43,237 nucleotides of DNA from a virus: IMG/VR virus record IMGVR_UViG_3300034106_004434, positions 1 to 43,237 of that record, one strand, 5' to 3'. Below the pieces are notes generated by a model. It was given only the letters and a program-made list of their open reading frames with translations. It was not told the DNA's origin and did no database searches. The translations under genes and the position numbers were made by a program. Shown piece after piece: positions 2,821-42,788 of this stretch. Each line of letters opens with the position of its first letter. Position 1 is the first letter of the stretch.

Positions 2821-2827
2821 TATTTAG
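2821..2827 (-). promoter_or_regulatory. Putative late promoter (CTAAATA)
   Basis: CTAAATA on the minus strand, 10 bases before the ATG of the 95-residue gene. It matches the heptamer found before virion genes here. Confidence 0.5.
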
Positions 2828-3017
2828 ACCAGGAAATTCAAAAGGAACCCAAAATATTTTAATACAAACCCAGACAGTCTTATAAAGTCGGGCGCTATTA
2901 TTCCCTAGGTCTCTATTAAAACAAAACAGAAACCGGCTTATTCAGCGGATTTTTCCTATTTCTACCGTAAAATCCACCAATCCGCTCCAAAATGGGCCAG
3001 AAAATCGCCATTTTTCT

Positions 3018-3860
3018 TTAAAAACCCGCCAGAAAATCGACCATTTTCGGAAAAAATTGCTCCTGAACCGACTGGATTCCGTTCTTTCGATACAGGCCCA
3101 GGACCCTATTTTGGTCGGAAATCTTATACCAGGTCTTAATATAATTGGTGGCCGGACCAAAGGGAATCTTCTCCAGATCCCCGGGGCGTAATGGAACCGG
3201 TTCATAAACAATCCCAGGGCGGACCGGTGCCGCGCCGTCTTTATAAAACACATAAAGATCCTTTCGGTCCAGTAATTCTTTCAGGGACTGAATGTCCGTG
3301 GTCTTTGGACCTGCCGGAGCAGGGACCGGGGCTGCAGGGGCGGGTGCAGGGGCGGGTGCAGGGGCCGGGGCGGCTTCTTTTATCAGGTCATCAAAGGAAG
3401 GGATAAAGCCAGCCGTGACTACCACCGGATTTTGGTTGACTGCTGGCTTGGCTGGGGTCTTCTGGGGGTTTAAAATGGAACGATTAGACTGCCGATTATT
3501 TTCCCGAGCCCGTGCTAATTTCGTATTAGGATCTTTGAGGCTAAGATAGAATGTTTTATTCTGGGGATTAATAGCCTTGATAGTGGCTGACCAAACCTGG
3601 CACAATTTTGGATCCTTGTCATCTATTTGCACATGGAATATTTGTTGGCCGGGTTTTAGATCATCCGTGGTTTTAATTTCCATCTGTTCCAGGTCCCTGG
3701 TCAAATGTTGAATTAAGTCTCCACCCAGTTGCCCCAAGAACCCCAAATCAATAGTGCCTGGGTCTTTGGGATTACCTAGACTCTGGACCGCTCCTTGGGC
3801 CGTCCCTGCCAGAGCATTTCCTAATACAGACCCAAACGATTCAACAATATTTTCAAACAT
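3018..3860 (-). CDS. Putative virion protein with Pro-Ala linker
   Basis: A 280-residue protein, family not recognised. The N-terminus (FGSVLGNALAGTAQGAVQSLG, split here by no charged residue) is a Gly/Ala-rich amphipathic or membrane-active stretch. A central beta-rich domain of about 100 residues follows, then a long flexible Pro-Ala linker (about residues 165-190, built from AP repeats), then a C-terminal domain containing YVFYKDGAAPVRPGIVYEP. Such N-domain/linker/C-domain architecture is common in phage structural or envelope-acting proteins. The linker is encoded by GC-rich 12-base repeats around 3335-3372. It is transcribed divergently from the 3905 gene over a 44-base gap that has late-promoter-like motifs on both strands, supporting late expression. 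Confidence 0.68.
   Translation of the reverse strand: MFENIVESFGSVLGNALAGTAQGAVQSLGNPKDPGTIDLGFLGQLGGDLIQHLTRDLEQMEIKTTDDLKPGQQIFHVQIDDKDPKLCQVWSATIKAINPQNKTFYLSLKDPNTKLARARENNRQSNRSILNPQKTPAKPAVNQNPVVVTAGFIPSFDDLIKEAAPAPAPAPAPAPAAPVPAPAGPKTTDIQSLKELLDRKDLYVFYKDGAAPVRPGIVYEPVPLRPGDLEKIPFGPATNYIKTWYKISDQNRVLGLYRKNGIQSVQEQFFPKMVDFLAGF
3335..3372. repeat. 12-base G-rich coding minisatellite
   Basis: Repeats of GGGGCGGGTGCA and close variants. On the coding strand they specify the Pro-Ala linker of the 280-residue protein. Slippage here would change linker length in steps of four residues. Confidence 0.8.
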
Positions 3861-3870
3861 AAGATCTAGA

Positions 3871-3877
3871 TACTTAT
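3871..3877 (-). promoter_or_regulatory. Putative late promoter (ATAAGTA)
   Basis: The octamer TATAAGTA on the minus strand differs from the T4 late consensus TATAAATA at one position and lies 10 bases before ATG 3860. On the opposite strand ATAAGTT (3890-3896) precedes ATG 3905 by 8 bases, a weaker match. Confidence 0.5.
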
Positions 3878-3904
3878 AGCATCTTGTCCATAAGTTATAA
3901 TAAC

Positions 3905-4879
3905 ATGGATGTTTTAACCCAATTTTTAGGCTTGTCTGGCATTTGGCAAACCGGCAGCTTTCCGCTCCTACCTTTAAAATTGCCTATCTCGGTTCTAGGA
4001 AGTTTAGATCAGACAGCCCCCATATCCCTATTAAATGCCGTTCAAACCAGGACGCCTGAATTGATAGATATCCAGCCGTTTATATCCCAGTCCCTTTCGT
4101 GTGGTTCTACGGTCTCCTCTTTACACCTGTCTTCAGTGGAATTACAGCAGATTAATCTAGGTTCTAATACGGGTTATGTTTCTATTGTCTATCAGACCAC
4201 AGGTAATCGACCTTTTCGTCTGTCCGTGGACTGGAACGGCTCCACAGTAATAGACACCCTCTGGAGAGGGCCTGTGAGTGCTAATAGTTTGTTATTGTCC
4301 TTGTGCAGTGCCTCTATCACCGGGCCTAGTTCAGGAATTATTAGCTTTTATAAGAACTATTCAGCCCCGTCTGCCACCGTTACTGTTTATGATCCGTTTG
4401 ATAATTTTGCCTGGAGCTATTATATAAACTGCCCGCAAGCTACACCCTTGCAACAGAATATACCCGGAACAGCATGGATGACGCCACCCATGATAATTAC
4501 CTATACCTGGGACGGACCTGCGGGCCCATATGATATATTCACTGGCACCACATTTTTGAGCAGCACCCTGGGTTGGTGGTCTAGTGGCTTTACTGCTCCA
4601 TATATGGTTTGGACCGACGTCTCCTCTTTGCTCTATGAAACCTTCTCCGTGCGGGTAGATGATGCCCATACTGATTCCATGTGGACGTTGTCCACAACGA
4701 TAAATCTGGTGGCTGATTGGTATATAAATACAGGAACAGGTGGTGCCGTAACTGTCACCTATAATGGAGACACTCAATCAAAGGACATCTATCCGGGCAC
4801 CGTTGGTAGTGCTATTCCGCCCACTACCCCTGTTGGTTCTATCACGGTGAATGACGATGGGACATTCGTCCTCAACTAA
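3905..4879 (+). CDS. Beta-rich putative virion/tail protein
   Basis: A 324-residue protein rich in Ser, Thr, Tyr, Trp and Gly, with few charged residues. This is the composition of phage fibre or baseplate beta-structures. The last 70 residues (GTGGAVTVTYNGDTQSKDI... to GSITVNDDGTFVLN) look like a small immunoglobulin-like or beta-sandwich domain. No known family is recognised. The ATG at 3905 is chosen; a TTG at 3884 is in frame but would invade the divergent promoter region. It is followed after 34 bases by the large vWA protein on the same strand, so it probably belongs to the same late tail unit. Confidence 0.72.
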   Translation: MDVLTQFLGLSGIWQTGSFPLLPLKLPISVLGSLDQTAPISLLNAVQTRTPELIDIQPFISQSLSCGSTVSSLHLSSVELQQINLGSNTGYVSIVYQTTGNRPFRLSVDWNGSTVIDTLWRGPVSANSLLLSLCSASITGPSSGIISFYKNYSAPSATVTVYDPFDNFAWSYYINCPQATPLQQNIPGTAWMTPPMIITYTWDGPAGPYDIFTGTTFLSSTLGWWSSGFTAPYMVWTDVSSLLYETFSVRVDDAHTDSMWTLSTTINLVADWYINTGTGGAVTVTYNGDTQSKDIYPGTVGSAIPPTTPVGSITVNDDGTFVLN

Positions 4880-4900: not shown

Positions 4901-4907
4901 ATAAATA
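4901..4907 (+). promoter_or_regulatory. Putative late promoter (ATAAATA)
   Basis: The octamer CATAAATA ends 6 bases before ATG 4914. It matches seven of eight bases of the T4 late promoter TATAAATA, and no Shine-Dalgarno sequence lies between it and the start. Confidence 0.62.
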
Positions 4908-4913
4908 TACCAA

Positions 4914-7900
4914 ATGGCCTTTGATCTTAAAACTCCCGCTCCTTTAGCTCTAACTGAATGGACCAAAAGATACCCTTTATTTTCTACTCAAGACACTAAA
5001 GCGGGTTATATGGCCTATTTGCGGGCCTGGTATAAGCAACAACCAACCAGTGAACAAGATAAGATTGATGAATTTCAATTGAAATATGTTCAATTATTAC
5101 AAGAATTGTCTTATTTGTTCAGTCCAGAAGAATCTAATCTGTTTCTTTCTGATATAGACTGGACTAATGAAGAAGATATTGTATTGGTTATTCCTATTTT
5201 CGCCCGGAAGTTAAAGGAGATTTCTCAGGTGTTGGTTAATAAAAGAGAAAGTATCAAACAGGCTAAGCAGAAATACAGCATTGCCGGAACCAATGATGGA
5301 GTCGAAACTCTTTTATATCAATATATCTTAAATGGATTCACCCAAAGGAATCAAATAACCCAGATTCCATATTCCCCGTTGCGAGGTCAATTGCCAGCCC
5401 TTTCTTCTATTGGTGGAGATTTTCGAGTCGAAATAGAAGAACTCTATGATACCCAGACCTATTTTGATTCTGATCCAGCATTACCTGTTTCTGCTTATGA
5501 TCTAGTAACTTCAGCCGCCGTTCCATTTGATAATATGGGCGTAGAGCAATTAAACCAATTGCTGACCAACAGATTCTTGGCCAAAGTTTCTGATAACACC
5601 GTCGCTGCTGTATTTCGTTCTTTATATCCAGGGATTTCTGCTGATACCTTTGATGTCCAAGCTGCTTCGTTGACAGAACAGTCCCAAGCATCCAAACAGT
5701 ATATGGGCGCTGTGGTTTATAGTGTTTCGGGTGGGTATATTGACAATGCACCGGACCTGCAGTCTTCTCTTGATTTTGTTAGCGGAAATAATTGGTTTCT
5801 ATGGCCTAATGGTTCTAAGGACTTGAATCCCTCCAAATTCATTAACACCTATAAACCAGTTCCTCTTAGTTCTTCTAATTTGTTAGCTTCTGGAGCTGCG
5901 GGTGGAAATAATATTAACAATTCAGATTTATTGTTTGTAGAGTCAGCAGGAAAAGTATCTGGGGCTTGGTTGAGTTTATTTTTTGATAAGGTGTCTGCAG
6001 CAAAAATGTCAGCTCATATTAAAGGAGAGACCACCAGAGACTTTCGATATCCGTATCCCGGATTTAATTTGACTCAAATTGGTTTAAATTGGAATGGATT
6101 TAACTTATCAGATAATAATCTGCCAATATTCAACCTACTGTCTAATGAAGTGCAAGCTAGTATATTGCGCGAGTATTGGACTAAGACTCTGCCTTTGAGT
6201 GCCGCCACTGATTTAGACATAAACAAATCAGATTTAGTATCCTGTGGAGCCTTTGCTGGTCCTAATTCTCTCTCGGCCGACGTTATATCTTTACGTAGTT
6301 CGATGAACGCCTTGGATTCGGTCTATACGGATCAACTTACTGGAACATCACAGGCCTTTCTTTACAAATTCCAATATACTGATATACCTCTGTCTATTGG
6401 AGCCTCTAATATATTGTGGCCTATTGGAAATAATTCCTCTAAAGTCCAACCTACTTCTTCTTGGTGTAATAATATACCACTGCAGACCTTGTGGGTGCCT
6501 ACTAATATGACTGGGGCTGTTGCCGGTCTAACTTTAGGGTCCTCTGATCAAATTTATAAATTAAATGCCAGTGATTTAACGCCTGTGGAAGGTGCTTGGT
6601 TGAAGGGTGCAAGTATTAATAGTTTATACGAAGATCCAAAGACGGCCATTGCTGTTTATAATAGGGATGCCACGTTTTGTGCTCAGTATATTGACGGACC
6701 CATTCAACCGTCTTTGGCCCTATTGGTAGAACCTGGTGACATTCAATCCTTTATTTGGATGGATCAAGACACGCCCGCCGATCAGGTTTTTGCCTTTGTG
6801 CCCCATAAAACAGATTGCAATTACCTTATATCCAAAAAGGAATGCAATTGTAAATCAATACAATACTCTCCTATAGGCCACCAAGGAGATAAACTAACCG
6901 ACCACGGCAGTGTTACTGATATATTATTTGCAGACCCTCAAGGACTGGGTTCTAATTTTGCCATCAACACCTATACAGACACCAGAGGATTTAATGCCCT
7001 ACAAAGTCCTCAGTTCTCATTCTTTAGTTTAACTTCAGCTGCAGATGATGCTGTTGGTTGGGGTCCTGGTAACTGGAAATCTAATAATGGGGATACTATG
7101 ATTCTCAAAACGGGAAGTAGATATACCTATATACGCACTCCTTTCCCAGCTAATATTAATAAACTACCTACTTATTTTATTTGTTTATATCCGTATAAAA
7201 ATATATCCAGCCAATACAAATACGAAGAAACGGACGTTGTGTTCTTATTAGATTATAGTGGCTCTGAGTCTGCTAATATTAATATTATCAACACAGTGGC
7301 TTCGCAGATTATTAAAACGCTGTTACCAGACAATCAAACCAGTGTTCAAGTAGCTGCGTATGTTTTTGATGAAAGTGCTCGTTCTGTTTTTGGATTTATA
7401 CAGCAACCAGACATCGTAGACTATGCTTTGCAAAGCACCACATTTAATTCTCAGGCATCCACAAATTATATAGCGCCATTAAGTGCTGCTATAGGATTAT
7501 TAACTACCAACTTAAATCCTAGTTCTTACAACCTATGCAATAACATAGAGAACAATATTCTTAATGCTTCTGGGCAAGGTGGTGGACACGGGCGAGAATC
7601 TGCATTAAAGAAAATTATTATTATCGGAGACGGCCATGACACGGTTAATAACATAGATATAGTAGAATATTGGGACTCCGTTTTGCGGGCCGAGCAATAT
7701 CCAATTCAAGTTTTTTCTATATCCTTAGGAGCAGAATCTGCAGACAATACCGTAATGCAAAATATTGCCAGACCACTAACCAATCATGTGGATCTGCAGT
7801 CTGTTATTATTAACCAAGAAGTTAATCTATCTACTTTTGCGAAGCAAATAGCCCAACAGGTTGGCAACCAACCTGTTATATTTCCTTCCTGGCAAAAGTC

Positions 7901-9194
7901 TATTAATAAAAACGGAACATGGGTAGACGCTGGCGAACCATCCGATTTAATTTTATCTCCTGGGGACAATATACAATATATTCATACTACAGGCCCTAGC
8001 TATTCAGCTCAGGCCATCAATGGAGATTCAGCAATATTCAAGCAGAATGCCACCAGTTTTAAAATTAAGACCAAGTTGAACGGCTGGGATTATAAAACAT
8101 CTAACTATTCAAGTAATAATGTGGGCTTGGTATATGGATCCCAACCATTTTGGGGTAAAGTTTATAATCAACCAGATGTGGCCAATAATTTCAACAAAGA
8201 AACTGCTTATCTAGGCGGACATGTTCGATACTATAATGATTACATTCCAATCATTCAACCAGAAATTTCTGATCTGGTGTTGTCTAATAATAGTTGGATA
8301 CAATATAATCGCAAAGATGTATACCCATTGAATTGGATTCAGCCCGTAACTTTAAATATCAGTGAAGCTGGGTTGGGTTGGCTGAAATTAAAACTGACCA
8401 CAGAAGTTACTAATCTGTCTGCTCTGTTTCTAAATCAGCCAATGGATAAAGTGGTAATTCTAACCACAGAACCAAGCGATATCTTATTGGAGAGTTATAC
8501 TGATTATAATCTCAACCAATATAACTATTGGGCTCAACAACCCTTTACCTATAAGGAATCCCTATACAGTAATCCAGCGTGCCCTTCGTTATTCCCTGTG
8601 GTTACGTCGGTGTTTATCAGTCCTGCTATGCCATGGGCTAATATGGATAACGTTCACTTTCCAACCATAGCAGCTGTTTCTGTGCCACAAAATCTAAAAT
8701 CCAAAAGGGAATTAGGTTATTTGGTTCCTTCTAATCTAGGCACGTCGTCTTATCTCGGGAAGGGATATACCATGTCTCTGAATGTTGATGCTTTGTCTGG
8801 TCAGACTACTGAATCTTTGTTTTGGGATTTAAATGTTTATGGTGGACGTAATAGAGGCCTAAGCAAACAAGATCAACTAGCTCCTGTATCCATAACCAAT
8901 ATCGACAATTCTTGGTTGTCTGCTCCTTCCACTACGGGATTGTTATCTGGGACTATCATTAATGCTCGTCATTACCAAAAGATGGTCCCATACCAATCGG
9001 ACGTAGAAACTAATGGATATTCTTCCTATGGACTCAGTCGTCCTGAGGATTATAATATATTTTGGACAACTGCCCTATCCTCTACGAAAACAGACTTTAA
9101 TCAAGCCATTCTCCCATTGTTATCTGATGTTGGCACCATTACTGACTGGGCTACAGATCTTTATGGGAATGAATACGGTGTCTTTAAAAGTTAA
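4914..9194 (+). CDS. Giant tail/baseplate protein with von Willebrand A domain
   Basis: 1426 residues. The N-terminal ~250 residues are helical, and a stretch KLKEISQVLVNKRESIKQA followed by a Gly-containing turn and 'GVETLLYQYILNGF' resembles the N-terminal module of T4-like baseplate-associated virion proteins; this is an impression only. The middle is beta-rich. A von Willebrand factor A domain lies at about residues 775-980: VVFLLDYSGSES supplies the DxSxS metal-site motif, TNYIAP a candidate Thr, and IIIGDGHD the later Asp. An intact MIDAS of this kind typically binds a divalent cation and a protein ligand, so a role in adhesion or in regulated baseplate assembly is plausible (inference). 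A Cys cluster (KKECNCKS) occurs upstream of it. The ATG follows a late-promoter motif by 6 bases. The stop shares TTAA with the convergent gene. Confidence 0.85.
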   Translation: MAFDLKTPAPLALTEWTKRYPLFSTQDTKAGYMAYLRAWYKQQPTSEQDKIDEFQLKYVQLLQELSYLFSPEESNLFLSDIDWTNEEDIVLVIPIFARKLKEISQVLVNKRESIKQAKQKYSIAGTNDGVETLLYQYILNGFTQRNQITQIPYSPLRGQLPALSSIGGDFRVEIEELYDTQTYFDSDPALPVSAYDLVTSAAVPFDNMGVEQLNQLLTNRFLAKVSDNTVAAVFRSLYPGISADTFDVQAASLTEQSQASKQYMGAVVYSVSGGYIDNAPDLQSSLDFVSGNNWFLWPNGSKDLNPSKFINTYKPVPLSSSNLLASGAAGGNNINNSDLLFVESAGKVSGAWLSLFFDKVSAAKMSAHIKGETTRDFRYPYPGFNLTQIGLNWNGFNLSDNNLPIFNLLSNEVQASILREYWTKTLPLSAATDLDINKSDLVSCGAFAGPNSLSADVISLRSSMNALDSVYTDQLTGTSQAFLYKFQYTDIPLSIGASNILWPIGNNSSKVQPTSSWCNNIPLQTLWVPTNMTGAVAGLTLGSSDQIYKLNASDLTPVEGAWLKGASINSLYEDPKTAIAVYNRDATFCAQYIDGPIQPSLALLVEPGDIQSFIWMDQDTPADQVFAFVPHKTDCNYLISKKECNCKSIQYSPIGHQGDKLTDHGSVTDILFADPQGLGSNFAINTYTDTRGFNALQSPQFSFFSLTSAADDAVGWGPGNWKSNNGDTMILKTGSRYTYIRTPFPANINKLPTYFICLYPYKNISSQYKYEETDVVFLLDYSGSESANINIINTVASQIIKTLLPDNQTSVQVAAYVFDESARSVFGFIQQPDIVDYALQSTTFNSQASTNYIAPLSAAIGLLTTNLNPSSYNLCNNIENNILNASGQGGGHGRESALKKIIIIGDGHDTVNNIDIVEYWDSVLRAEQYPIQVFSISLGAESADNTVMQNIARPLTNHVDLQSVIINQEVNLSTFAKQIAQQVGNQPVIFPSWQKSINKNGTWVDAGEPSDLILSPGDNIQYIHTTGPSYSAQAINGDSAIFKQNATSFKIKTKLNGWDYKTSNYSSNNVGLVYGSQPFWGKVYNQPDVANNFNKETAYLGGHVRYYNDYIPIIQPEISDLVLSNNSWIQYNRKDVYPLNWIQPVTLNISEAGLGWLKLKLTTEVTNLSALFLNQPMDKVVILTTEPSDILLESYTDYNLNQYNYWAQQPFTYKESLYSNPACPSLFPVVTSVFISPAMPWANMDNVHFPTIAAVSVPQNLKSKRELGYLVPSNLGTSSYLGKGYTMSLNVDALSGQTTESLFWDLNVYGGRNRGLSKQDQLAPVSITNIDNSWLSAPSTTGLLSGTIINARHYQKMVPYQSDVETNGYSSYGLSRPEDYNIFWTTALSSTKTDFNQAILPLLSDVGTITDWATDLYGNEYGVFKS

Positions 9195-16793: not shown

Positions 16794-16799
16794 TATCAA

Positions 16800-16806
16800 T
16801 ATTTAT
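16800..16806 (-). promoter_or_regulatory. Putative late promoter (ATAAATA)
   Basis: CATAAATA on the minus strand, in the 32-base gap between the 2023-residue gene and the next gene. The spacer to ATG 16793 is 6 bases (TTGATA). Confidence 0.62.
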
Positions 16807-22903: not shown

Positions 22904-22910
22904 TATTTAG
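22904..22910 (-). promoter_or_regulatory. Putative late promoter (CTAAATA)
   Basis: CTAAATA in the 29-base gap upstream of the 2023-residue gene, exactly 6 bases before ATG 22897. Confidence 0.58.
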
Positions 22911-28310: not shown

Positions 28311-28322
28311 ATAAATACTTAG
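28311..28322. promoter_or_regulatory. Overlapping divergent late promoters
   Basis: The 12 bases ATAAATACTTAG hold ATAAATA reading right (toward ATG 28341, 23 bases away) and CTAAGTA reading left (toward gp25, ATG 28303, 12 bases away). The two cores overlap by two bases, so the divergent units would compete for one site. Confidence 0.5.
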
Positions 28323-31358: not shown

Positions 31359-31359
31359 A

Positions 31360-32668: not shown

Positions 32669-32669
32669 A

Positions 32670-33188: not shown

Positions 33189-33192
33189 AGTA

Positions 33193-33363
33193 TTAGCCTT
33201 CTATGAGTGAACTTCCGGGAAATTGGGTGTCAATCACCTCATTTACCCTTTGCTGTGGAGTTTGCGTTCTTACACTGTTTTGAGAAAGCCATTGAAGTAG
33301 TTCTCCGAGTCTTTCTTGTGGGATTTGATAGTCCTGTCCATTTACGGTTATTCTGCTTTGCAT
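33193..33363 (-). CDS. Small phage protein, 56 residues
   Basis: ATG 33363 to TAA 33193 encodes MQSRITVNGQDYQIPQERL followed by LGELLQWLSQNSVRTQTPQQR and ends DTQFPGSSLIEG. It looks like a compact, soluble beta-plus-helix protein, with a Gln-rich helix. No family is recognised. It lies 4 bases upstream of the dUTPase gene on the same strand, so operon membership supports it. It is divergent from the small terminase gene with a 55-base gap. Confidence 0.68.
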   Translation of the reverse strand: MQSRITVNGQDYQIPQERLGELLQWLSQNSVRTQTPQQRVNEVIDTQFPGSSLIEG

Positions 33364-33406
33364 AGACCAATATTAACATTTCCTCTATCGTTTTCAACGT
33401 GGTAAC

Positions 33407-33413
33407 CTAAATA
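33407..33413 (+). promoter_or_regulatory. Putative late promoter (CTAAATA)
   Basis: CTAAATA ends 5 bases before ATG 33419 of the small-terminase-like gene. Confidence 0.5.
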
Positions 33414-33418
33414 TTAAG

Positions 33419-33943
33419 ATGAGTGACGAAATCGATGAAATAGTAGAGCAGTTAAAGGCGGATAATGTTCCTGGTATTAGGGCGTCCGCTAATACCACTC
33501 CTTCTGAAGTAGTTACTGATGCTAATGTTGAAGCATTCATCTATGATAAGGCTGCCAAGTTAATTGAGATGAGTATGGGGGCTGCTTTGGACTTAAAGGA
33601 AAGTGTCATATCTGGCGGGGAAGCCAAAGAAATTGCCGCCCTAGCTTCTTTGTTTGGGGCTGCAACCAAAGCCATCGAAACCCTGAACAAACTCAATTTG
33701 CAGAAGAAGGATGCGGTTATTCAAAAGGAACTAAAAGCCATGGAATTGGAGGCCTCTAAGAATATCGGTAAAAATATGCTAGAAAACACGAAGGGTAATA
33801 ATACTACCAATATCGTGATTACTACCCGGGAGAAAATTCTAGATCAAATCTCTGGCAAAATAACAGACGCCCTGCCGAAACGCAGAGAAAATATCAAAGA
33901 AGCAGAGATTATTCCTAATAACCTGTTAGAATCAGGAGAATGA
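33419..33943 (+). CDS. Small terminase subunit-like (T4 gp16 type)
   Basis: 174 residues, mostly helical, consistent with the coiled hairpin of T4-like gp16 proteins that recognise DNA for packaging and assemble as rings. N-terminal features are NVEAFIYDKAAKLIEMSMGAAL, then GGEAKEIAALASLFGAATKAIETLNKLNLQKKDA. A Lys/Asn-rich linker (NTKGNNTTNIVIT) and a final basic-acidic region follow. The helix-hairpin arrangement and the late promoter next to it support terminase; sequence similarity is only by pattern. The large subunit is not in the window. The start of the next gene overlaps its stop. Confidence 0.55.
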   Translation: MSDEIDEIVEQLKADNVPGIRASANTTPSEVVTDANVEAFIYDKAAKLIEMSMGAALDLKESVISGGEAKEIAALASLFGAATKAIETLNKLNLQKKDAVIQKELKAMELEASKNIGKNMLENTKGNNTTNIVITTREKILDQISGKITDALPKRRENIKEAEIIPNNLLESGE

Positions 33944-34134
33944 CACTCAAACAGGAAAACCAGAAGTTAAAGAAACTCTTGTTGGAATCTTTAGAGGAAT
34001 TGGGGTGGTTGGCAAAAGCTAATTCCTTACCAGCGATTGCTGGTAATCGATGGATGGACATCGGATTAAAAATCCACAACATGTTCCCACATGAGCCTAT
34101 TAGTAAGGATTTTCGGGAACTAATCCGTCAGTAA
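33940..34134 (+). CDS. Hypothetical small protein
   Basis: 64 residues, no recognised family. It begins MTLKQENQKLKKLLLESLEELGWLAKA, an amphipathic helix with heptad-like spacing suggestive of a coiled coil, followed by a short C-terminal stretch (GNRWMDIGLKIHNMF). The start overlaps the small terminase stop (ATGA) with a strong AGGAGA just upstream, indicating coupled translation. Its role may be linked to packaging by position. Confidence 0.68.
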   Translation: MTLKQENQKLKKLLLESLEELGWLAKANSLPAIAGNRWMDIGLKIHNMFPHEPISKDFRELIRQ

Positions 34135-34646
34135 ACCCCTTTCCAGTTGCCCTCGCCTGGATTCTCCACCATTTTGTTATAGTCAGCAAAACTGGTTCCG
34201 GCCTTAAAATCTTGAGGCTGTATGGTGGAAGCTAAGACCTTCATAAAGGCATCTTGTTCCTTGTGCAAATAGCTACCCCAACCCTTCGTCCTTGCATAGA
34301 GGTCCTTCCACAGCAACAAACGCTTGGACAGCGGATATGTCAGCAGGATTTCGCGCGTTTCTTCAGGAGTCTTGGGCTGCTCTTTCGGTAAATTGCGAAT
34401 ATTAAGCCACAACACCCTGGCATTGTTAATATTTTCTTCAATTTCAGGAGTGGCTGTTCTCTTAATCCCCTTCCACAGCCCATCTAACCAATTCAACACC
34501 CGTTCCTGATTGTCCACCGTTCTATTTTTACGAAAAAAATCATCCACTATCCGAAGCTTGTCTGGTATAGACGTATTGGACCCCTTTACTTCTACCCTAG
34601 TCATCTGCCATGCTGGGTCATATTTGGTGATATCTTTAGACTTCAT
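34128..34646 (-). CDS. Hypothetical phage protein
   Basis: 172 residues, mostly helical, no recognised family. It starts MKSKDITKYDPAWQMTRVEVKG. A central region with VLWLNIRNLPKEQPKTPEETREILLTYPL and KLLLWKDLYARTKGWGSYL, and a C-terminal end NPGEGNWKGVY, look like a conserved small phage fold. No active-site motif is seen. It overlaps the previous gene by 11 bases and the plus-strand gene by 7 bases at its end. Confidence 0.68.
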   Translation of the reverse strand: MKSKDITKYDPAWQMTRVEVKGSNTSIPDKLRIVDDFFRKNRTVDNQERVLNWLDGLWKGIKRTATPEIEENINNARVLWLNIRNLPKEQPKTPEETREILLTYPLSKRLLLWKDLYARTKGWGSYLHKEQDAFMKVLASTIQPQDFKAGTSFADYNKMVENPGEGNWKGVY

Positions 34647-34866
34647 CTATGATATTTATATCTTCTTTAGCCGGAACTTTCCAGATCTTAAAGCCAATCT
34701 TCTCATCTAAGTCAAAAGATTTGCACATCCACCAACTATAAATCCGATACCACCGATCTTGGAAGGCATCAGTTTCCTCGCAAAACCATTTAGTCTGGTC
34801 CGCCTTAGAAACCAAATTCCCCACCATGAAACAAAAATGAGCTCCTATCCAATAAAAAAGCTTCAT
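34636..34866 (-). CDS. Small hypothetical protein
   Basis: 76 residues. The N-terminus MKLFYWIGAHFCFMVGNLVSK is a hydrophobic helix that could insert in a membrane. The rest is Trp-rich (RWYRIYSWWMCKSFDLDEKIG), a pattern I associate with a family of short proteins in large T4-like phages, with no known function. Its start overlaps the end of the P-loop kinase gene by 4 bases and its end overlaps the next gene by 11 bases. Confidence 0.7.
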   Translation of the reverse strand: MKLFYWIGAHFCFMVGNLVSKADQTKWFCEETDAFQDRWYRIYSWWMCKSFDLDEKIGFKIWKVPAKEDINIIDEV

Positions 34867-35402
34867 AGGGACAATATTTCCTTTACCTGGTTTATTCTAT
34901 CTTCTACAGATCCAGTCAACTGAATCATTTTCTTGGTTAAATCATATTCTCCAAGCGTCTTATAAATGATGTCATCAATATCTCGTTGAAAGTGACTTGC
35001 TTGGGATCTAACCTGATCATCTACGATAGGAAATTCAATTGGGACATAAAAAATAAAGTCATACAAAGGTAAAAACTTTCGCATCAATTCCTTGGTAATG
35101 TTCAATGTTTCTGCGGAAACCTTTCCTTGTTTGTGAAGGTATTCCGTATAAGCATATCCGTCGATTACACACCGGTCCGCAAACCATCGATCCCTGCAAA
35201 ATTTCTGCACATGGCTGCTCTGGACAATTAATTGAACCAGATCATCCCCGTCCTCATTAATATTCATACCAGACTGAATAATATGTCGGGCAGATGAACT
35301 ATTATTTAGGACGGCAATTTGGTGGGTGGCAAGGTAATCAGCCAAACCATTCAAGACGGAACTTTTACCTGTTCCATGGGCTCCTGTAAGTGCGTATCTC
35401 AT
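34863..35402 (-). CDS. P-loop nucleotide kinase-like ATPase (AAA_28/NadR-like)
   Basis: 179 residues starting MRYALTGAHGTGKSSVLNGL, with a classic P-loop GAHGTGKSS close to the N-terminus. A region DRWFADRCVIDGYAYTEYLH corresponds to the second acidic and base-binding part, and FIFYVPIEFPIVDDQVRS with QRDID follows. The shape fits small NadR-like/AAA_28 kinases seen in T4-type phages, which may phosphorylate nucleosides or NAD precursors; the substrate is unknown. ATG 35402 is chosen over the upstream in-frame ATG 35441 because the glycine-rich loop then starts at residue 7. TATAAATA ends 2 bases upstream, but it lies inside the end of the preceding gene (encoding Tyr-Lys-stop), so it may be coincidence. 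Confidence 0.78.
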   Translation of the reverse strand: MRYALTGAHGTGKSSVLNGLADYLATHQIAVLNNSSSARHIIQSGMNINEDGDDLVQLIVQSSHVQKFCRDRWFADRCVIDGYAYTEYLHKQGKVSAETLNITKELMRKFLPLYDFIFYVPIEFPIVDDQVRSQASHFQRDIDDIIYKTLGEYDLTKKMIQLTGSVEDRINQVKEILSL

Positions 35403-35403
35403 A

Positions 35404-35703
35404 TTATTTATATTGCATATCCATCCAATTCCAATAAGCACATGCAGGGCAATGGGCTGCTAGACCTTTGTATCCGGCGTGGTTGTTTCTGGGGAAATAA
35501 TCTCTTGTCTTGAATGGCCTATCACAGTGGCCGCAAATAATAGATAACTTGGGTCTACCCCATAAACAAATATTCCACCCTCTGTAATCTTTAGCTTCAC
35601 ACAGTTTCTCATTAGGTGGTATATAGACACCAGACATACATTGAATATTCATACAGACACCAGACATACATTGAGTTTGGGTATCCATATTAATCCCAGT
35701 CAT
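35404..35703 (-). CDS. Cys-rich zinc-binding-type hypothetical protein
   Basis: 99 residues starting at ATG 35703, chosen because GGAG sits 5 bases upstream and it overlaps the previous gene only slightly. The N-terminal part carries a duplicated QCMSGV segment. The C-terminal half has a probable zinc ribbon: CGHCDRPF, then AAHCPACAYW about 28 residues later. Two upstream Cys residues (LCEAKDYRGWNICLW) may also bind metal. No recognised family. Nucleic-acid binding is possible but not shown. Confidence 0.68.
   Translation of the reverse strand: MTGINMDTQTQCMSGVCMNIQCMSGVYIPPNEKLCEAKDYRGWNICLWGRPKLSIICGHCDRPFKTRDYFPRNNHAGYKGLAAHCPACAYWNWMDMQYK
35621..35674. repeat. 24-base direct repeat, two copies
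   Basis: A near-identical 24-base unit, ATA(T/C)AGACACCAGACATACATTGA, occurs at 35621-35644 and 35651-35674, a 30-base period. It encodes the duplicated QCMSGV stretch in the Cys-rich protein and looks recent, since only one base differs. Confidence 0.9.
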
Positions 35704-35887
35704 TGTCTCCGCAAATTTCACACGTTTTGTATCGTTTGCCACCGCCATCCGTATAATTGTCCGATTTATATTTATGGGGGCACAATGCGCGAATGCTTCC
35801 GATGGCCTTCCGCACCTTGGAAAGATCTTCAATTAGTTGGTTCTCTCGTTTTAAGAGATTGACTATATTGACTAGATTATCATCCAT
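35690..35887 (-). CDS. Small Cys/His protein with helical N-terminus
   Basis: 65 residues. The N-terminus MDDNLVNIVNLLKRENQLIEDL is amphipathic and probably coiled. The C-terminus has ALCPHKYKSDNY followed by CEICGD, a possible four-ligand zinc site (Cys, His, Cys, Cys). No recognised family, but small phage proteins of this type are common. The gene is followed by the Cys-rich gene with a short overlap. Confidence 0.66.
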   Translation of the reverse strand: MDDNLVNIVNLLKRENQLIEDLSKVRKAIGSIRALCPHKYKSDNYTDGGGKRYKTCEICGDNDWD

Positions 35888-35915
35888 GTCTTATAATATC
35901 CCAGTTTTGCTTGGA

Positions 35916-36386
35916 TTACAAGTCATAAACAAATACGGCATGCTCTTTTAGCGTCCGGTTAATAATAGGTTCTATCTCTTCCCACGTTCCTCCGGCGAGG
36001 CCTGTCCCGATTCTTGGCATGTGGATGCTGGCATTGTAAATTTTGGCTAACTTAGCCACCTTATCCAAGCACCTTTCTAGTTCTAGATAATTTACATATC
36101 GCTTAGTAACCTTATAGGTTGGTGAATATCCTTCTTGGGCGATCATATTAATTACCCACAAACTATCTTCTACTTGGACCTTTTGGGTATTACCCATTTC
36201 AAACGGAGCATGCGGCCATTTAGCCTTAGACCATGAACGGTATTCCATTTCGGGTTGTTTCCATTTGTTGGAAAGAGCCAAAACAAATCCCTTACCCCAA
36301 CCGCCTTTATCGTTACAAATATGAACAATAAACCGATTTCCGCCGGTTTGGGGTTCTGTTGCGTCTCCTTTAAGATAGGTAATCAT
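35916..36386 (-). CDS. Macro domain protein (ADP-ribose-type)
   Basis: 156 residues forming a single macro domain. The ADP-ribose-binding parts are GDATEPQTGGNRFIVHICNDKGGWGKGFVLALS, where the early Asp and the N-D-G-G-W-G loop line the pocket, and PRIGTGLAGGTWEEI, the phosphate-binding loop. The form and length (about 155 residues) are those of Poa1p-like enzymes, which remove phosphate from ADP-ribose 1''-phosphate. Other macro domains remove ADP-ribose from protein or nucleic acid. In a phage this may counter ADP-ribosylation-based defence or recycle NAD-derived products; both are inference. It follows the gene at 36383 with an ATGA-type overlap. Confidence 0.87.
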   Translation of the reverse strand: MITYLKGDATEPQTGGNRFIVHICNDKGGWGKGFVLALSNKWKQPEMEYRSWSKAKWPHAPFEMGNTQKVQVEDSLWVINMIAQEGYSPTYKVTKRYVNYLELERCLDKVAKLAKIYNASIHMPRIGTGLAGGTWEEIEPIINRTLKEHAVFVYDL

Positions 36387-38212: not shown

Positions 38213-38467
38213 TTAGTGATTAATTAATACAGCATTTCCGCTGACTAATTGCACAAAAGAAGCAGACTGCGGAAATGGTAAAAAGTCGCCAGCTCCTAGT
38301 TGAATATTGGTGAGGTTGCCTAAAAACAAGGGACACCCACTCACAGCAGAAATCATCGTATTGGTCAGTGCCTTAATACCAGCCCAAGGACCAGTGTATC
38401 CAGCCGTATCAGTGACATAACGACCTCCCCAGAGATCGAAAACAGTATTATAATCAGGTCCGCGCAT
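38213..38467 (-). CDS. Small protein downstream of the capsid gene
   Basis: 84 residues, MRGPDYNTVFDLWGGRYVTD at the start, then a hydrophobic beta-like middle with Ser/Thr/Gly (GVKALTNTMI-type helix, LFLGNLTNIQLGAGDFLPF) ending SGNAVLINH. Composition and position next to gp23 suggest a virion or capsid accessory protein. No family is recognised. A late-promoter-type ATAAGTA lies exactly 6 bases before the ATG, and the transcript therefore starts after the gp23 terminator. Confidence 0.68.
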   Translation of the reverse strand: MRGPDYNTVFDLWGGRYVTDTAGYTGPWAGIKALTNTMISAVSGCPLFLGNLTNIQLGAGDFLPFPQSASFVQLVSGNAVLINH

Positions 38468-38473: not shown

Positions 38474-38480
38474 TACTTAT
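38474..38480 (-). promoter_or_regulatory. Putative late promoter (ATAAGTA)
   Basis: GATAAGTA on the minus strand, 6 bases before ATG 38467 and about 90 bases after the capsid terminator. Confidence 0.5.
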
Positions 38481-38623: not shown

Positions 38624-40099
38624 TTACGGTAGATACGTCACTTGCGAAGAAGACGACTGGAACGATGCTCCAAGGCCTTGAACAATCACCAAGTGATAGT
38701 ATAGACTTGCTCCAAAGATGTGATCGATTATGCCATAACGGGTCATTAGACCCACACGTGGTGCGAAGTCATTTGGTCCGATGGTCCTTTGGATCATAAC
38801 TGGAATGTAAGGGCAATATACAATACCTGTGTCGTAGTATTCCGAACCCTTATAACCTAACAGGGCGTATTCAATGCGGTTGCTTGCGCTTGCATTGATC
38901 TGCCGCGATTCGGTGCGGGTGTCGCGATAGACGGTGAAACGTCCACCAAGGGTTCCTACTTTCGCAATTCCGGTTGGCTGGGTGTTAATGTTTCCATTAA
39001 CGGCCATCCATTGGAACTCAGGAAGCATTTCCATGATTGCGCACACTTTCGGCGTTGCAATGATGAAGTTTGCGGATCCACGACGGTTACGAATAGCAAC
39101 GCGGTTTGCTTCGATGATAACCTTAGCATAGAAGTCACGGTTACGTTCTCCAAGCCAACGAGCATCAGCGGACTGGGCATACCAGAAGCTGTAACCCGAT
39201 CCGGAACCTGCATTCAAGCAAGTCTGGATCATGCGGATCACGACTTCACGGTCGATTTCGGCCTGAATTTCATAACTCATGGCGTTCGTCAATTCTGCAT
39301 CGACGTCCAGCCCGTTCATGTTCTTCAAGTCCTGCTCCAGTTCCACAGACCACTTAGCAGCGAGCCTACGAGTTCCGGCTTCCACAGCAGTCTTGCTGAA
39401 CTGAAGGGTCATCGTTGGGATGTTACCAGTCAATTCAAACTGGCTAAGCAACTGAGCAACGCCGATGTCTTCGACATTGAAGCCGGACATCATTGGGAGT
39501 GCCGACACATCCGAAGTGTTACGACCAGATAGCGATGCACTGGAAGTTCCGGTGTAACGAGTGTCCAGGTTCTGGTAACCAACTTCATTGGTTTGCGAGG
39601 TGCGCCATGCGGCTCCGGTCATCGCGGAGTTACCGTCTACATCACCAGACGAAACCTTACCAAGGGGATTAGCTCCATCATAGTAGTAACGAAGGGCGAA
39701 TGCGAGACCAACAGGTCCGCTCATGGGTTGAACGCCGACGATTTCGTTCGTAATCAGTTCAGGGAACGTCCTACGAATCATCGGAATCAGAACCTTAGGA
39801 AGACGGGCATCATTCGATGCATACCAGTCAGATCCACCAGGGACTGCGTTGCCGTTATTGCCAGTAGCGCCGGAACCGAAGACGGATCCACTACCACCAG
39901 ATTGAGGGCTCGATTCGTTTAGACACCAAGCTTCTTGGTTTTCCATTAGGATAGCGGTCGTAAGACGGCTATGTTCATTCTCCAAGGGAGCAACCTTATC
40001 GGAACTATAGTTCAGAATTGGTGCCCACTTTTCGAGGATTGCTTTAGCGCGGGAACGGTCGATATAACCGGGCGCGGGTTTTACAGAGTTTGTGCTCAT
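38624..40099 (-). CDS. Major capsid protein (T4 gp23-like)
   Basis: 491 residues (T4 gp23: 521). The N-terminal part KAILEKWAPIL and the ILMENQEAW segment match the T4 pro-peptide region (LLNKWKPLL; IFENQEK). A prohead-protease site LNE (residues 60-62) is followed by SSPQSGG, so cutting there would give a mature chain of about 429 residues; T4 gp23 is cut after residue 65. GVQPMSGPVGLAFALRYYYDG matches the highly conserved T4 GVQPM(N/S)SPTGQVFALR. The HK97-type fold is therefore expected. It forms the capsid hexamers. The gene has higher GC than its neighbours, a hairpin in its leader, no clear Shine-Dalgarno sequence at the ATG, and a strong terminator after it, as fits the most abundant late protein. 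Confidence 0.97.
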   Translation of the reverse strand: MSTNSVKPAPGYIDRSRAKAILEKWAPILNYSSDKVAPLENEHSRLTTAILMENQEAWCLNESSPQSGGSGSVFGSGATGNNGNAVPGGSDWYASNDARLPKVLIPMIRRTFPELITNEIVGVQPMSGPVGLAFALRYYYDGANPLGKVSSGDVDGNSAMTGAAWRTSQTNEVGYQNLDTRYTGTSSASLSGRNTSDVSALPMMSGFNVEDIGVAQLLSQFELTGNIPTMTLQFSKTAVEAGTRRLAAKWSVELEQDLKNMNGLDVDAELTNAMSYEIQAEIDREVVIRMIQTCLNAGSGSGYSFWYAQSADARWLGERNRDFYAKVIIEANRVAIRNRRGSANFIIATPKVCAIMEMLPEFQWMAVNGNINTQPTGIAKVGTLGGRFTVYRDTRTESRQINASASNRIEYALLGYKGSEYYDTGIVYCPYIPVMIQRTIGPNDFAPRVGLMTRYGIIDHIFGASLYYHLVIVQGLGASFQSSSSQVTYLP

Positions 40100-40125
40100 A
40101 TTATTGTTGTGTTGTTTTGTGTTTT

Positions 40126-40145
40126 AGAATCCAATAGGGGATTCT
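40126..40145 (-). promoter_or_regulatory. Leader hairpin of the capsid mRNA
   Basis: AGAATCC and GGATTCT form a perfect 7-base stem with loop CCTATT on the minus strand, 26 bases before ATG 40099. The remaining leader (ACACAAAACAACACAACAAT) is unstructured and A/C-rich. An AGGAG lies on the 5' side of the stem, too far for standard initiation. A role in mRNA stability or ribosome loading is possible. Confidence 0.6.
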
Positions 40146-40166
40146 CTCCTGTTGCTTTTGTGTCAA

Positions 40167-41072
40167 TTAAAATTTCTTATCAATCGACTGCAACTCACTC
40201 AGATATCCGGTGACCTGCCCATCTGGGCGGTCTGGGGTCTTACGAGGCTCGGCCTTGGGAACTACAGCATCGCGAGTCTTGGACCCGCTTACTGCTTCTT
40301 CCACAAGTTGTTCTGCCTCGGAGGACTCTTCCCTCTCGAACATCTCAACGACATAGTTAAAATTCTCACTAATATACTCAGGATCCTTATCAGAAAGGAT
40401 CTTGGTCAAATAGGTTTTCTTGGCACTGTTCATGCCTTTGGTCTTCTGCTCCAAGATCACCGAGGACTTGGACTTCTTATTGGATTCTGCTAAGACCAGG
40501 TTTTCTTTATAAGCTTCATTCAGCTGAGCTTGAAGTTCGTCGATCTTCTTACGACCATTTTCGATCGTTCCTTTGACGGACTCATTCAGCTGCTCTGGGT
40601 CAATAGCCAAGAACTTACGAATCTGACCCAATTGCTTCTTCGCATAGTTATTCGAAACGGCTTCTTCTAACTGAGCAGCAGGAATAGCCTTTTCCAAATA
40701 CAGATCCAAATAGTTACTGATCTTGCCCACCAAGGTATCACTGAACTCCGTGGCCTTCTCATTGATCGTCTTACGATACTTGTCAACAATCGTCTTGAGC
40801 TTATTGGTGTGATTCTCTGTAATGGTCTGAACCACCTTCTTCAGCTTGTTGGTGTGGTCGACATCAATCTTCTCCAAAAGAGTCTTTAGCTTGCTGGTGT
40901 GATCCTTATCCAACTTAGCAACAGCATTTTCCACTTCTAAGGAAACTTGCGTATTGGCCTTTTCCTTTACAGCACCATCAAAAGCTTCGGCAATTACCTT
41001 AGCAGTTTCTTCGTTGATGGCGGTTGTTCCATCTGGTCCTGTGATTTTCTTGAGAATGTCAGAAATGTTCAT
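40167..41072 (-). CDS. Prohead scaffold protein (T4 gp22-like)
   Basis: 301 residues, very rich in Lys, Glu and Leu and predicted almost wholly coiled coil, as for scaffolding core proteins. Three copies of HT(S/N)KLK, in KDHTSKLKTLL, VDHTNKLKKVV and ENHTNKLKTIV, spaced about 19 residues, form an unusual internal repeat. Many L-x-E-type sites (QLNE, VILE, LVLAE) are available to the gp21 protease, consistent with degradation during maturation. It directs prohead assembly and lies between the 80-residue core protein and gp23, as in T4. A late promoter ATAAATA precedes ATG 41072 by 10 bases. It has no Shine-Dalgarno sequence. Confidence 0.88.
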   Translation of the reverse strand: MNISDILKKITGPDGTTAINEETAKVIAEAFDGAVKEKANTQVSLEVENAVAKLDKDHTSKLKTLLEKIDVDHTNKLKKVVQTITENHTNKLKTIVDKYRKTINEKATEFSDTLVGKISNYLDLYLEKAIPAAQLEEAVSNNYAKKQLGQIRKFLAIDPEQLNESVKGTIENGRKKIDELQAQLNEAYKENLVLAESNKKSKSSVILEQKTKGMNSAKKTYLTKILSDKDPEYISENFNYVVEMFEREESSEAEQLVEEAVSGSKTRDAVVPKAEPRKTPDRPDGQVTGYLSELQSIDKKF

Positions 41073-41082
41073 TGTATGTAAT

Positions 41083-41089
41083 TATTTAT
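41083..41089 (-). promoter_or_regulatory. Putative late promoter (ATAAATA)
   Basis: GATAAATA on the minus strand in the 43-base gap before gp22, 10 bases from ATG 41072. Confidence 0.62.
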
Positions 41090-41115: not shown

Positions 41116-41358
41116 TTACTTAGAATCGTCTTTGCCGGCTTTCTTTTTCTTAAAGAAAGTCTTCGGATCAAATTTCTTCTTTCCGTCTTTTTTGTCGTCC
41201 TTCTTTTTATCCTTATCTTTACCTTTAATCTTCTTTAAGGTTTCCTTCACCTTTGCCTTGACCTTTTCTTGCAAAATGGTTTCTAAATTCTGATGGGCCT
41301 CAGAGTATTGATCTGCAAAGATCTGGGTGATTAACGTAGAAATGTTCTTAGCGCTCAT
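41116..41358 (-). CDS. Small prohead core protein (gp67/gp68 position)
   Basis: 80 residues. The N-terminal half is helical (ISTLITQIFADQYSEAHQNLETILQEKVKAKVKETL), with the 'sa...le.il.eKv...' pattern of T4-like prohead core proteins. The C-terminal half is almost all Lys and Asp (KKIKGKDKDKKKDDKKDGKKK). T4 gp67 has the same length with an acidic tail, so the basic tail here is notable and would favour DNA or nucleic-acid contact, or protease-driven release of a basic peptide. It sits between gp21 and gp22. A CTAAGTA motif lies 6 bases before the ATG. Confidence 0.72.
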   Translation of the reverse strand: MSAKNISTLITQIFADQYSEAHQNLETILQEKVKAKVKETLKKIKGKDKDKKKDDKKDGKKKFDPKTFFKKKKAGKDDSK

Positions 41359-41364
41359 GTGATA

Positions 41365-41371
41365 TACTTAG
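41365..41371 (-). promoter_or_regulatory. Putative late promoter (CTAAGTA)
   Basis: CTAAGTA on the minus strand, 6 bases before ATG 41358, in the 29-base gap after gp21. Confidence 0.48.
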
Positions 41372-41387
41372 ATAGGTGATGGGATAG

Positions 41388-42062
41388 TTATGAATTCTTT
41401 AGAGCGTTAATGAATGCTAAAATATGTTCCTTCAAATACTTCTCCGTGTCTTTCTTGGGGAGAGTAGCCATATCCTTTTCAAAGGCGGCATACAGGGGTT
41501 CGAATTGTCCGGCTTCATTTAGGACCCACTGCTTTGATTCTAAGATCCCGTTTACAAAAGCTGTTGGCACACTAGGATCAGCCACCACATCAATAGCCAC
41601 GATTCTTAGACCCTCTACTCGCTTGACACTATTAGACTCTTCTACTAAACGGCCTAATGACCGACTAGACACACCTAACTTGACACCGTCTAGAACTAAG
41701 GATTTGGCTAAGATGCCCAATGGAGTCGAAAGCATCTTGCTCTTGCCTTCAAAGTAATTGCCGTTTTGTTTTAGATTCGTCACCATGTGGCAAACGCGCT
41801 CTAAATTGATTTCAGGGCTTTGAGGGTGATTTAATTCTCCGGTGGACCTCTTCGTCACAATCATCTCAGTGTTATAACGATCCACTTCCTTGACCATTTC
41901 TTCTAATGGATAACGACGTTTGTTCTTGTTCACTTCTTCAGCCATCAAGAACGGCCCAGAAAGATACATCGTGGAAGGGGCATTTCGATTTTGTTCGTCC
42001 AGCATATATGTGACGTCAAAAACTGGCTCATCTACCAATAACTTAAAAGGGGACATGATCAT
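41388..42062 (-). CDS. Prohead core protease (T4 gp21-like)
   Basis: 224 residues (T4 gp21: 212). This serine protease family degrades the scaffold and trims capsid proteins. The catalytic His lies in STGELNHPQ (His79) and the Ser in LGVSSRSLG (Ser133, the second Ser of SSR), matching the ELNHP and VSSRG motifs of phage prohead proteases. The following DVVADPSVPTAF is the typical 'vD.v.dPa' strand. A second ATG at 42056 is equally plausible, giving 222 residues. The gene has a late promoter ATAAATA 9 bases upstream of the first ATG and lies next to its substrates gp22 and gp23. Confidence 0.93.
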   Translation of the reverse strand: MIMSPFKLLVDEPVFDVTYMLDEQNRNAPSTMYLSGPFLMAEEVNKNKRRYPLEEMVKEVDRYNTEMIVTKRSTGELNHPQSPEINLERVCHMVTNLKQNGNYFEGKSKMLSTPLGILAKSLVLDGVKLGVSSRSLGRLVEESNSVKRVEGLRIVAIDVVADPSVPTAFVNGILESKQWVLNEAGQFEPLYAAFEKDMATLPKKDTEKYLKEHILAFINALKNS

Positions 42063-42071
42063 TATATTACG

Positions 42072-42078
42072 TATTTAT
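42072..42078 (-). promoter_or_regulatory. Putative late promoter (ATAAATA)
   Basis: GATAAATA on the minus strand in the gap before gp21, 9 or 15 bases from the two candidate ATG codons. Confidence 0.62.
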
Positions 42079-42103
42079 CACTATGGTAGTCCAAACGAAT
42101 CAT

Positions 42104-42319
42104 TTAGATGGCCCTTAAGAATTCTCTAATTCCGCCATCATAATGTTTATTAACACCCCTAATAATTTGCTCATCGGTTAACTCTGCTAAACTTTCTTCA
42201 TCCATATCACCCCAAGAACAATCAGCTACCCATTCTCTCATGGCTGCTATTTGCTCTGCAGTAAATATGGGATTTATATTTTCTTTTAATAAGTTACAAA
42301 AAGATTCAAAGTTTAACAT
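42104..42319 (-). CDS. Small head-cluster protein
   Basis: 71 residues. The start MLNFESFCNLLKENINP has the same shape as the targeting-like N-terminus of the 28341 gene (M-x-x-F-x-x-F/D-x-x-L-L-[EK]). The rest is acidic and helical (QIAAMREWVADCSWGDMDEESLAELTDEQIIRGVNKHYDGGI). It lies between the gp4-like and gp21 genes, where T4 has the small core proteins gp67 and gp68. A CTAAATA motif is 9 bases before the ATG. Function as a core or internal protein is inferred. Confidence 0.66.
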   Translation of the reverse strand: MLNFESFCNLLKENINPIFTAEQIAAMREWVADCSWGDMDEESLAELTDEQIIRGVNKHYDGGIREFLRAI

Positions 42320-42323
42320 ATGA

Positions 42324-42788
42324 TTAACTATTTAGGTGTTTCTCGGTTAATACTATGAATTGATAACCTTTAGATTTAGCCCACTGTGTAGCAGCAGACC
42401 ACTTGGCTTGGTTAATTCCCCAATGATATCGCTCATAGAGCATCGTGGATTGTTTTTTTCGATTAGTAACTTCGGGTGGTTTAGTTTGTTTTTCTGGTTT
42501 ATATTCGATTAATAATTTTTTAGTAGTTCCGTCTTTCATAACCATGTGACATACAAAGTCTATAAAATATCTATGCACCCTTCCATCCGCAGGACTTTCG
42601 TAAGGGACCACTACAGATTCTGAACCCCACATAGTTACGTTCGTAGAACTATCAAGCCACCTCATTACTTTTAGTTCTGCTCCTGATCTATAAACAACCG
42701 GAGTTGAACCTTTATACTTTTCTGGAAATCTAAGAGTATAAATTCCTTGGGAATACTTGCCGTTTTTCTTGTTCGGTTTAGCTTTCAT
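42324..42788 (-). CDS. Head completion nuclease-like protein (T4 gp4)
   Basis: 154 residues (T4 gp4: 150). The series YRSGAELKVMRWLD, GRVHRYFIDFVCHM, LLIEYKPEKQTKPP is the same as in T4 gp4 (also called gp50/gp65 in older maps), with a restriction-endonuclease-like core: Glu38, Asp77 and Glu95-x-Lys97 (EYK). It is thought to finish or stabilise packaged DNA at head completion, acting like TnsA-type endonucleases. ATG 42788, two bases after the previous stop, is chosen over a TTG at 42803. The N-terminal 12 residues are Lys-rich (KAKPNKKNGK). Confidence 0.92.
   Translation of the reverse strand: MKAKPNKKNGKYSQGIYTLRFPEKYKGSTPVVYRSGAELKVMRWLDSSTNVTMWGSESVVVPYESPADGRVHRYFIDFVCHMVMKDGTTKKLLIEYKPEKQTKPPEVTNRKKQSTMLYERYHWGINQAKWSAATQWAKSKGYQFIVLTEKHLNS
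42329..42335 (-). promoter_or_regulatory. Putative late promoter (CTAAATA)
   Basis: CTAAATA on the minus strand within the 3' end of the gp4-like gene, 9 bases before ATG 42319 of the 71-residue gene. Confidence 0.5.

Follow-up and report, generated by a model that had tools for sequence, protein, structure and literature searches.

A T4-type late-promoter motif abutting start codons in a group of uncultured T4-like phages, and its likely part in leaderless late transcription

Introduction

The virus record IMGVR_UViG_3300034106_004434 of the IMG/VR database is a fragment of 43,237 bases (positions 1 to 43,237, in the following termed "the window") with a GC content of 0.40 and a single tRNA-Ile at its left end. 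It contains a T4-type structural gene cluster, and many of its genes are preceded, at a distance of only a few nucleotides (nt), by a short motif with the core hexamer TAA[A/G]TA, the likely core of a T4-type late promoter. Late transcription in phage T4 is a textbook system, which yields leadered mRNAs that depend on Shine-Dalgarno (SD) sequences for translation. A large, uncultured environmental group of T4-like phages, to which the window belongs, apparently moved the T4 late promoter onto the start codon. Here we describe the motif and its position in the window and in related genomes, discuss the transcripts that would arise from it and outline how the arrangement relates to known phage systems.

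The window and its relatives

According to PHROG matches, the structural cluster of the window comprises the genes for the major capsid protein gp23, the scaffold protein gp22, the protease gp21 and, at 26004-28303, baseplate proteins. A nucleotide-metabolism block at 29754-36386, likewise assigned by PHROG matches, includes clamp loader, thymidylate synthase, dUTPase and other genes. The first 25 kb of the window gave no match to phage records in a megablast search, and the best matches of its gp23 to phage records reach about 33-35% identity. In IMG/VR, 80 contigs encode a gp23 with 61-73% identity; together with 70 more contigs, retrieved with a more distant gp23, they form the set of 150 related contigs used below, to which two long relatives of 211 kb (263 called genes) and 230 kb (286 called genes) were added. 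In a gp23 tree the group (99 SH-aLRT) is separate from T4 and the cyanophages, and the cultured, T4-like Rhodothermus phage RM378 and a distant SD-using group lie on very long branches.

Position of the motif relative to start codons

In the window, 14 copies of [ACG]TAA[AG]TA are located 4-20 nt before a called start, compared to 0.4 expected by area (Poisson p ~2e-17; Table 1). The heptamer in total occurs 37 times versus 47.5 times expected from shuffled sequences, and thus the enrichment is positional, not overall. An initial annotation of the window, which was based on the letters alone, had listed 13 starts with a motif and had taken them as a strong enrichment: all 13 motifs are present, and the enrichment holds for their position, not for the abundance of the heptamer as such. 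The gaps (the nt between the end of the motif and the ATG) also agree with that annotation, being 6 for the genes starting at 4914, 16793, 22897, 38467 and 41358, 5 for 33419 and 9-12 for most of the others; the gene at 28341 departs from this range with a gap of 23. An additional site, absent from that list, is the TATAAATA at 34653-34660. The motif upstream of 16793 argues for this ATG over the TTG at 16799 as the start of its gene. At 28311-28322 two motifs overlap on opposite strands, one for each gene of the divergent pair 28303(-)/28341(+).

Table 1. Motif sites in the window and the gp23 region. Gap, nt between the end of the motif and the ATG; ORF, open reading frame; aa, amino acids.
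Feature	Position	Strand	Gap	Gene or remark
CTAAATA	2821..2827	-	10	ORF 2523-2810(-)
ATAAGTA	3871..3877	-	10	ORF 3018-3860(-)
ATAAATA	4901..4907	+	6	ORF 4914-9194(+), 1426 aa
ATAAATA	16800..16806	-	6	ATG 16793 of ORF 16251-16793(-)
CTAAATA	22904..22910	-	6	ORF 16826-22897(-), 2023 aa
ATAAATA	28311..28317	+	23	ORF 28341-28898(+)
CTAAGTA	28316..28322	-	12	gp25-like baseplate gene 27794-28303(-)
CTAAATA	33407..33413	+	5	ORF 33419-33943(+); predicted transcription start (+1) = A of ATG
TATAAATA (perfect)	34653..34660	-	6	ATG 34646 of ORF 34128-34646(-); site within upstream ORF, function uncertain
ATAAGTA	38474..38480	-	6	ORF 38213-38467(-)
gp23 major capsid gene	38624..40099	-		motif directly upstream absent
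gp22-gp23 leader	40100..40166	-		AGGAGA and apparent hairpin AGAATCC-CCTATT-GGATTCT, read from sequence
ATAAATA	41083..41089	-	10	gp22-like scaffold gene 40167-41072(-)
CTAAGTA	41365..41371	-	6	ORF 41116-41358(-)
ATAAATA	42072..42078	-	9	gp21 protease gene 41388-42062(-)
CTAAATA	42329..42335	-	9	ORF 42104-42319(-)

The count of the motif relative to starts, which the initial annotation had suggested extending beyond these genes, reveals the same arrangement throughout the group. In the 150 contigs the core hexamer is found at gap 3 in 6 cases, at gap 4 in 9, at gap 5 in 160, at gap 6 in 99, at gap 7 in 62 and at gap 8 in 30, with few cases per position farther out; the distribution rises abruptly at gap 5, its sharp lower edge, and is highest at 5-6. 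At least one motif at gap 4-7 is present in 119 of the 121 contigs having at least five ORFs. The 211 kb genome contains 10 motifs at gap 5 and 23 at gap 6, and the 230 kb genome 13, 22 and 15 at gaps 4, 5 and 6, respectively; gap 4 is also in use there, partly with GTG starts. The signal is strand-specific, since the reverse-complement hexamer, the opposite-strand control, produces no comparable peak, and neither do permuted hexamers, apart from ATRAAT and AATART, which overlap the motif. The start of gp21 is shared among its orthologs, 89 of 91 of which carry the motif, 33 at gap 5.

The motif occurs where intergenic space permits. Among same-strand genes it precedes 79% of those located 8-39 nt downstream of their neighbour, versus 7% of those at less than 8 nt. 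GTG starts accumulate at gaps 4-5 (29 cases) and are hardly found at any other gap, and TTG is not enriched. In the relative G008, GTG opens an ORF 4-5 nt from a motif in 18 places, which suggests that leaderless GUG starts are allowed in this phage.

Promoter character and predicted transcription start

The T4 late box is an 8-bp element that begins at -13, lacks a -35 element and is followed by AT-rich DNA (PMC2988020). The base-frequency tables of the group are likewise flat upstream of the motif, without conservation at -35, and T/A-rich after it. Since the T4 box spans 8 bp from -13, it ends at -6, which places +1 at the 6th nt beyond it. Of 230 genes in the group with gaps of 12-40, 38% have a TA step at the 5th|6th nt downstream of the motif, compared to 10-25% at other offsets (p ~2e-13). 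We take this step in leadered genes as an indication that transcription begins at the 6th nt after the motif, as in T4. In gap-5 genes the 6th nt is the A of the ATG, and a T precedes it in 80%.

With +1 at the 6th nt, the predicted RNA begins on the A of the AUG at gap 5, and retains 1 nt before it at gap 6 and 2 nt at gap 7. The rarity of gaps 3 and 4 would be expected if the transcript must retain its AUG. Predicted late mRNAs without a leader or with leaders of 1-2 nt at gaps 5-7 are well supported by motif and initiator signal, and leaderless or nearly leaderless transcription is likely for a large share of the late genes. A good share of the motif genes keep predicted leaders of 3-20 nt.

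Genes under the motif and phage transcription factors

Genes with the motif belong predominantly to the late class. In the 211 kb genome, motif genes checked by PHROGs include gp13, gp18, gp19, gp20, gp21, gp22 and virion proteins, and the replication block with helicase, gp55, gp46/47-like proteins, DNA polymerase and UvsX is devoid of the motif. A test for late bias confined to the window is small (3/5 versus 0/6, p = 0.06). The late sigma factor gp55 (phrog_234), for which the initial annotation had recommended a search, is encoded by 16 of 19 longer relatives, for example at 72121-72561 in the relative G006; it was not found among the scanned proteins of the window, which is a fragment.

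Translation signals and the host

SD-like sequences are present in 3% of the motif genes (background 8%) and in 15% of the motif-less genes (background 12%). In the T4 late region, 71% of the genes without a close motif have an SD-like sequence. The initial annotation had explained the missing SD sequences by leaderless late mRNAs; this explanation is not supported, since motif-less and operon-internal genes lack SD sequences equally, and therefore SD loss is general in these phages. It characterizes the phage as a whole and presumably also its host, and it is more likely that SD loss permitted the short spacing between promoter and ATG than that the spacing caused SD loss.

The host is probably a relative of the Bacteroidota that ignores SD pairing. 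Bacteroidota ribosomes are described to ignore SD pairing (PMC6847099, PMC9976891), and Far-T4-like phages are predicted to infect Bacteroidota (PMC7198788). The ribosomal protein bS21 (PF01165) is encoded by 8 of the 19 longer relatives (G003, G006, G008, G015-G019), in seven of them above the family cut-off. GTDB contigs scanned with gp23 for a host yielded no relative. In the 211 kb genome, the bS21 gene is preceded by late-promoter motifs at gaps 16 and 24.

The major capsid gene

The gene for gp23 is an exception, as 99 of 114 distinct orthologs are without the motif. Its leader is mostly 36-125 nt long, and 59 of the 114 distinct gp23 leaders contain an SD-like sequence, compared to 85 of 1345 other genes. 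In a set of 32 aligned leaders that share GGTCG, most members contain TTGAGG-loop-CCTGA, farther on GGTCGA and then an AAGGAGA-like, SD-like sequence. In six sources, Rfam searches with gathering scores as the threshold gave no match within or close to the gp23 leader. RNAalifold returned no consensus structure for the 32 leaders, though single hairpins are visible, and gp23 leaders are no stabler than intergenic stretches of 50-130 nt elsewhere (mean z relative to mononucleotide shuffles, -1.6 for the leaders and -2.5 for the other stretches). In view of the stability and RNAalifold results, the case for a structured RNA therefore draws solely on sequence and on pair conservation in a subset. 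It is conceivable, yet doubtful, that these phages produce two classes of late mRNA in an SD-ignoring host, where most late genes are expressed from leaderless mRNAs and gp23 from a structured leader that often has an SD-like site, and that the phage bS21 remodels ribosomes in favour of these phage mRNAs.

Interpretation and alternative explanations

We consider it quite probable that the motif represents T4-type late promoters, which are read with the help of gp55 and abut the ATG, giving rise to leaderless or nearly leaderless late mRNAs in an SD-independent host. The motif would be the -10 (TATA-box) element, recognized by the host RNA polymerase together with the phage gp55 sigma factor. 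Most late promoters of the group would have been pulled against the start codon, such that gap 5 lets the RNA begin with the A of the ATG itself, and gaps 6-7 leave 1-2 nt ahead of the ATG. Host ribosomes that work without SD pairing, probably those of a Bacteroidota relative, would need no leader, and the promoter could collapse to the minimal unit, the six motif bases and five more, with which the transcript still includes its AUG. The proposal of T4-type late promoters in the initial annotation is borne out by the core motif, the missing -35 element, the AT-rich downstream region, gp55 in the longer relatives and the restriction to late structural genes. The proposal that many late mRNAs are leaderless stands as a prediction for the class with gaps of 5-7, where the initiator signal favours it, and does not extend to all late genes, given the 3-20 nt leaders and the long gp23 leader.

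The promoters could be genuine and leaderless mRNA merely a by-product of SD loss, with most of the translated late mRNA originating from longer, upstream read-through. Compaction of this kind predicts an overlap of the motif with the stop codon of the upstream gene, which is found in 111 of 486 same-strand motif genes; moreover, motif-less genes with less than 8 nt of room have neither an SD sequence nor their own promoter, and longer transcripts presumably serve for their translation. However, the peak lies exactly where +1 would coincide with the A of the ATG and gaps 3-4 are near absent in the 150 contigs, which suggests selection for a 5'-terminal AUG; drift alone would distribute the gaps more evenly past the edge. 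Thus, we regard a mere by-product as rather unlikely. Much less probable is a role of the motif as an A-rich, Kozak-like translation-initiation element instead of a promoter. The region is A/T-rich, and Flavobacterium translation prefers A at -3 and -6 (PMC6847099), yet replication and operon-internal genes of the same phages do without the motif, the initiator signal is fixed relative to the motif and not to the ATG, and the divergent pair 28303/28341 carries one motif per strand. Furthermore, T4 and cyanophages have the hexamer some 19-28 nt upstream, where it acts in T4 as the established late promoter (PMC2988020). A product of chance, due to the composition of AT-rich intergenic DNA and the choice of the longest ORF, has next to no probability. 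The heptamer is overall no commoner than in shuffled sequence, as such an artefact would have it; the 14 copies versus 0.4, the strand specificity and the lack of a comparable peak for permuted hexamers, save overlapping ones, speak against it. The choice of the longest ORF is an unlikely cause as well: at gap 5 none of the stop codons in the motif is in frame with the ATG, and gp21 orthologs share their start. The gap histogram across contigs excludes this candidate.

Several points weigh against promoter-abutting, leaderless late genes as the preferred interpretation. Judged by its bases, the box of the group is less strict than that of T4, with no conservation of the first T of TATAAATA (-13) and either A or G at -8. 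The 5' ends of the transcripts are predicted positions, derived from motif and initiator signal. Some late genes, namely gp23, part of gp22 and operon-internal genes, are without the motif, and the window itself yielded no gp55. None of 9 relatives gave a hit for the co-activator gp33 (phrog_254), in a search that matched nothing anywhere, lacked a positive control and cannot show absence, and the clamp gp45 (phrog_223) was detected in 1 of 9; coupling of late transcription to the clamp and replication is therefore hypothetical. As to the host, no enrichment of Bacteroidota sigma-A promoters (TTG-N17-21-TAnnTTTG) is seen in either of the long genomes or in the window, and a comparison of the phage bS21 with solved ribosomes (PDB) is not decisive. 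Finally, leaderless mRNAs are few in Bacteroidota hosts (PMC6847099, PMC9723704): they amount to 5.5% in F. psychrophilum (PMC9723704), and 87% of the predicted leaders in F. johnsoniae exceed 10 nt (PMC6847099).

Since flavobacterial leaderless mRNAs are few, leaderless late mRNA would set the phage messages apart. The layout of promoter and ATG may serve as a cis-feature to separate phage from host mRNA, a discrimination that has been raised for phage-encoded bS21 and left open in the accounts concerned (PMC9723584, PMC9976891). The layout also suggests how transcription and translation signals co-evolve once the host ribosome abandons SD pairing. In practice, the spacing between motif and ATG provides a usable rule for the annotation of start codons in these abundant phages.

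Comparison with known systems

With the T4 late promoters (gp55/gp33/gp45), the group shares the -10 TATA-box core, the lack of a -35 element, the AT-rich downstream region, the inferred start at the 6th nt, the association with late genes and, in relatives, gp55. It differs from T4 in the relaxed positions -13 and -8 and in the results for gp33, undetected in a search without positive control, and gp45. Above all, in T4 late genes 24-28 nt mostly separate this core from the ATG, and an SD sequence lies between the two, whereas the spacing in the group is 5-12 without SD. The cyanophages S-B68 and RB11-B and the marine phage AG-345-F15 carry the core mainly about 19-29 nt upstream, and a distant group found with the gp23 of RM378 has it mainly 20-33 nt upstream, with SD-like sites in 53% of its genes. 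At gaps 4-7, the motif is not clearly enriched in the pelagiphage HTVC008M or in a Vibrio and a Campylobacter T4-like phage.

Other phages resemble the group in single traits. Late promoters of phiKZ are likewise located at the start site, where TATG spans -3 to +1 (PMC7618050, PMC5312081). Yet phiKZ uses its own multisubunit polymerase (nvRNAP) and a 4-nt motif ending at +1, and the group has a T4-type -10 box, probably read by the host polymerase with gp55. The bS21-encoding Bacteroidetes phages of Chen 2022 (PMC9723584) are aquatic, have a capsid/protease/portal cluster and encode bS21 like 8 of the 19 longer relatives; promoter or leader architecture is not reported in the parts of that paper covered here. 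A literature search, mainly of titles and abstract openings, with subscription journals and preprints outside its scope, found no description of a motif-at-ATG layout.

A cultured parallel is phage RM378. Of its 52 copies of [T/A]TATTTAA, 30 lie 4-20 nt before starts, where 0.5 would be expected; gap 6 is the most frequent, and SD sequences are scarce. Like the group, it has a start-proximal motif, and its host (Rhodothermota) belongs to the FCB group of bacteria, as that of the group probably does; unlike the group, it has a different motif, a very distant gp23 and a sigma factor in another PHROG (phrog_1740). Since its sigma factor belongs to a different PHROG, RM378 may have arrived independently at the same arrangement, and the analogous layout in a cultured phage makes the idea of promoters set against start codons testable.

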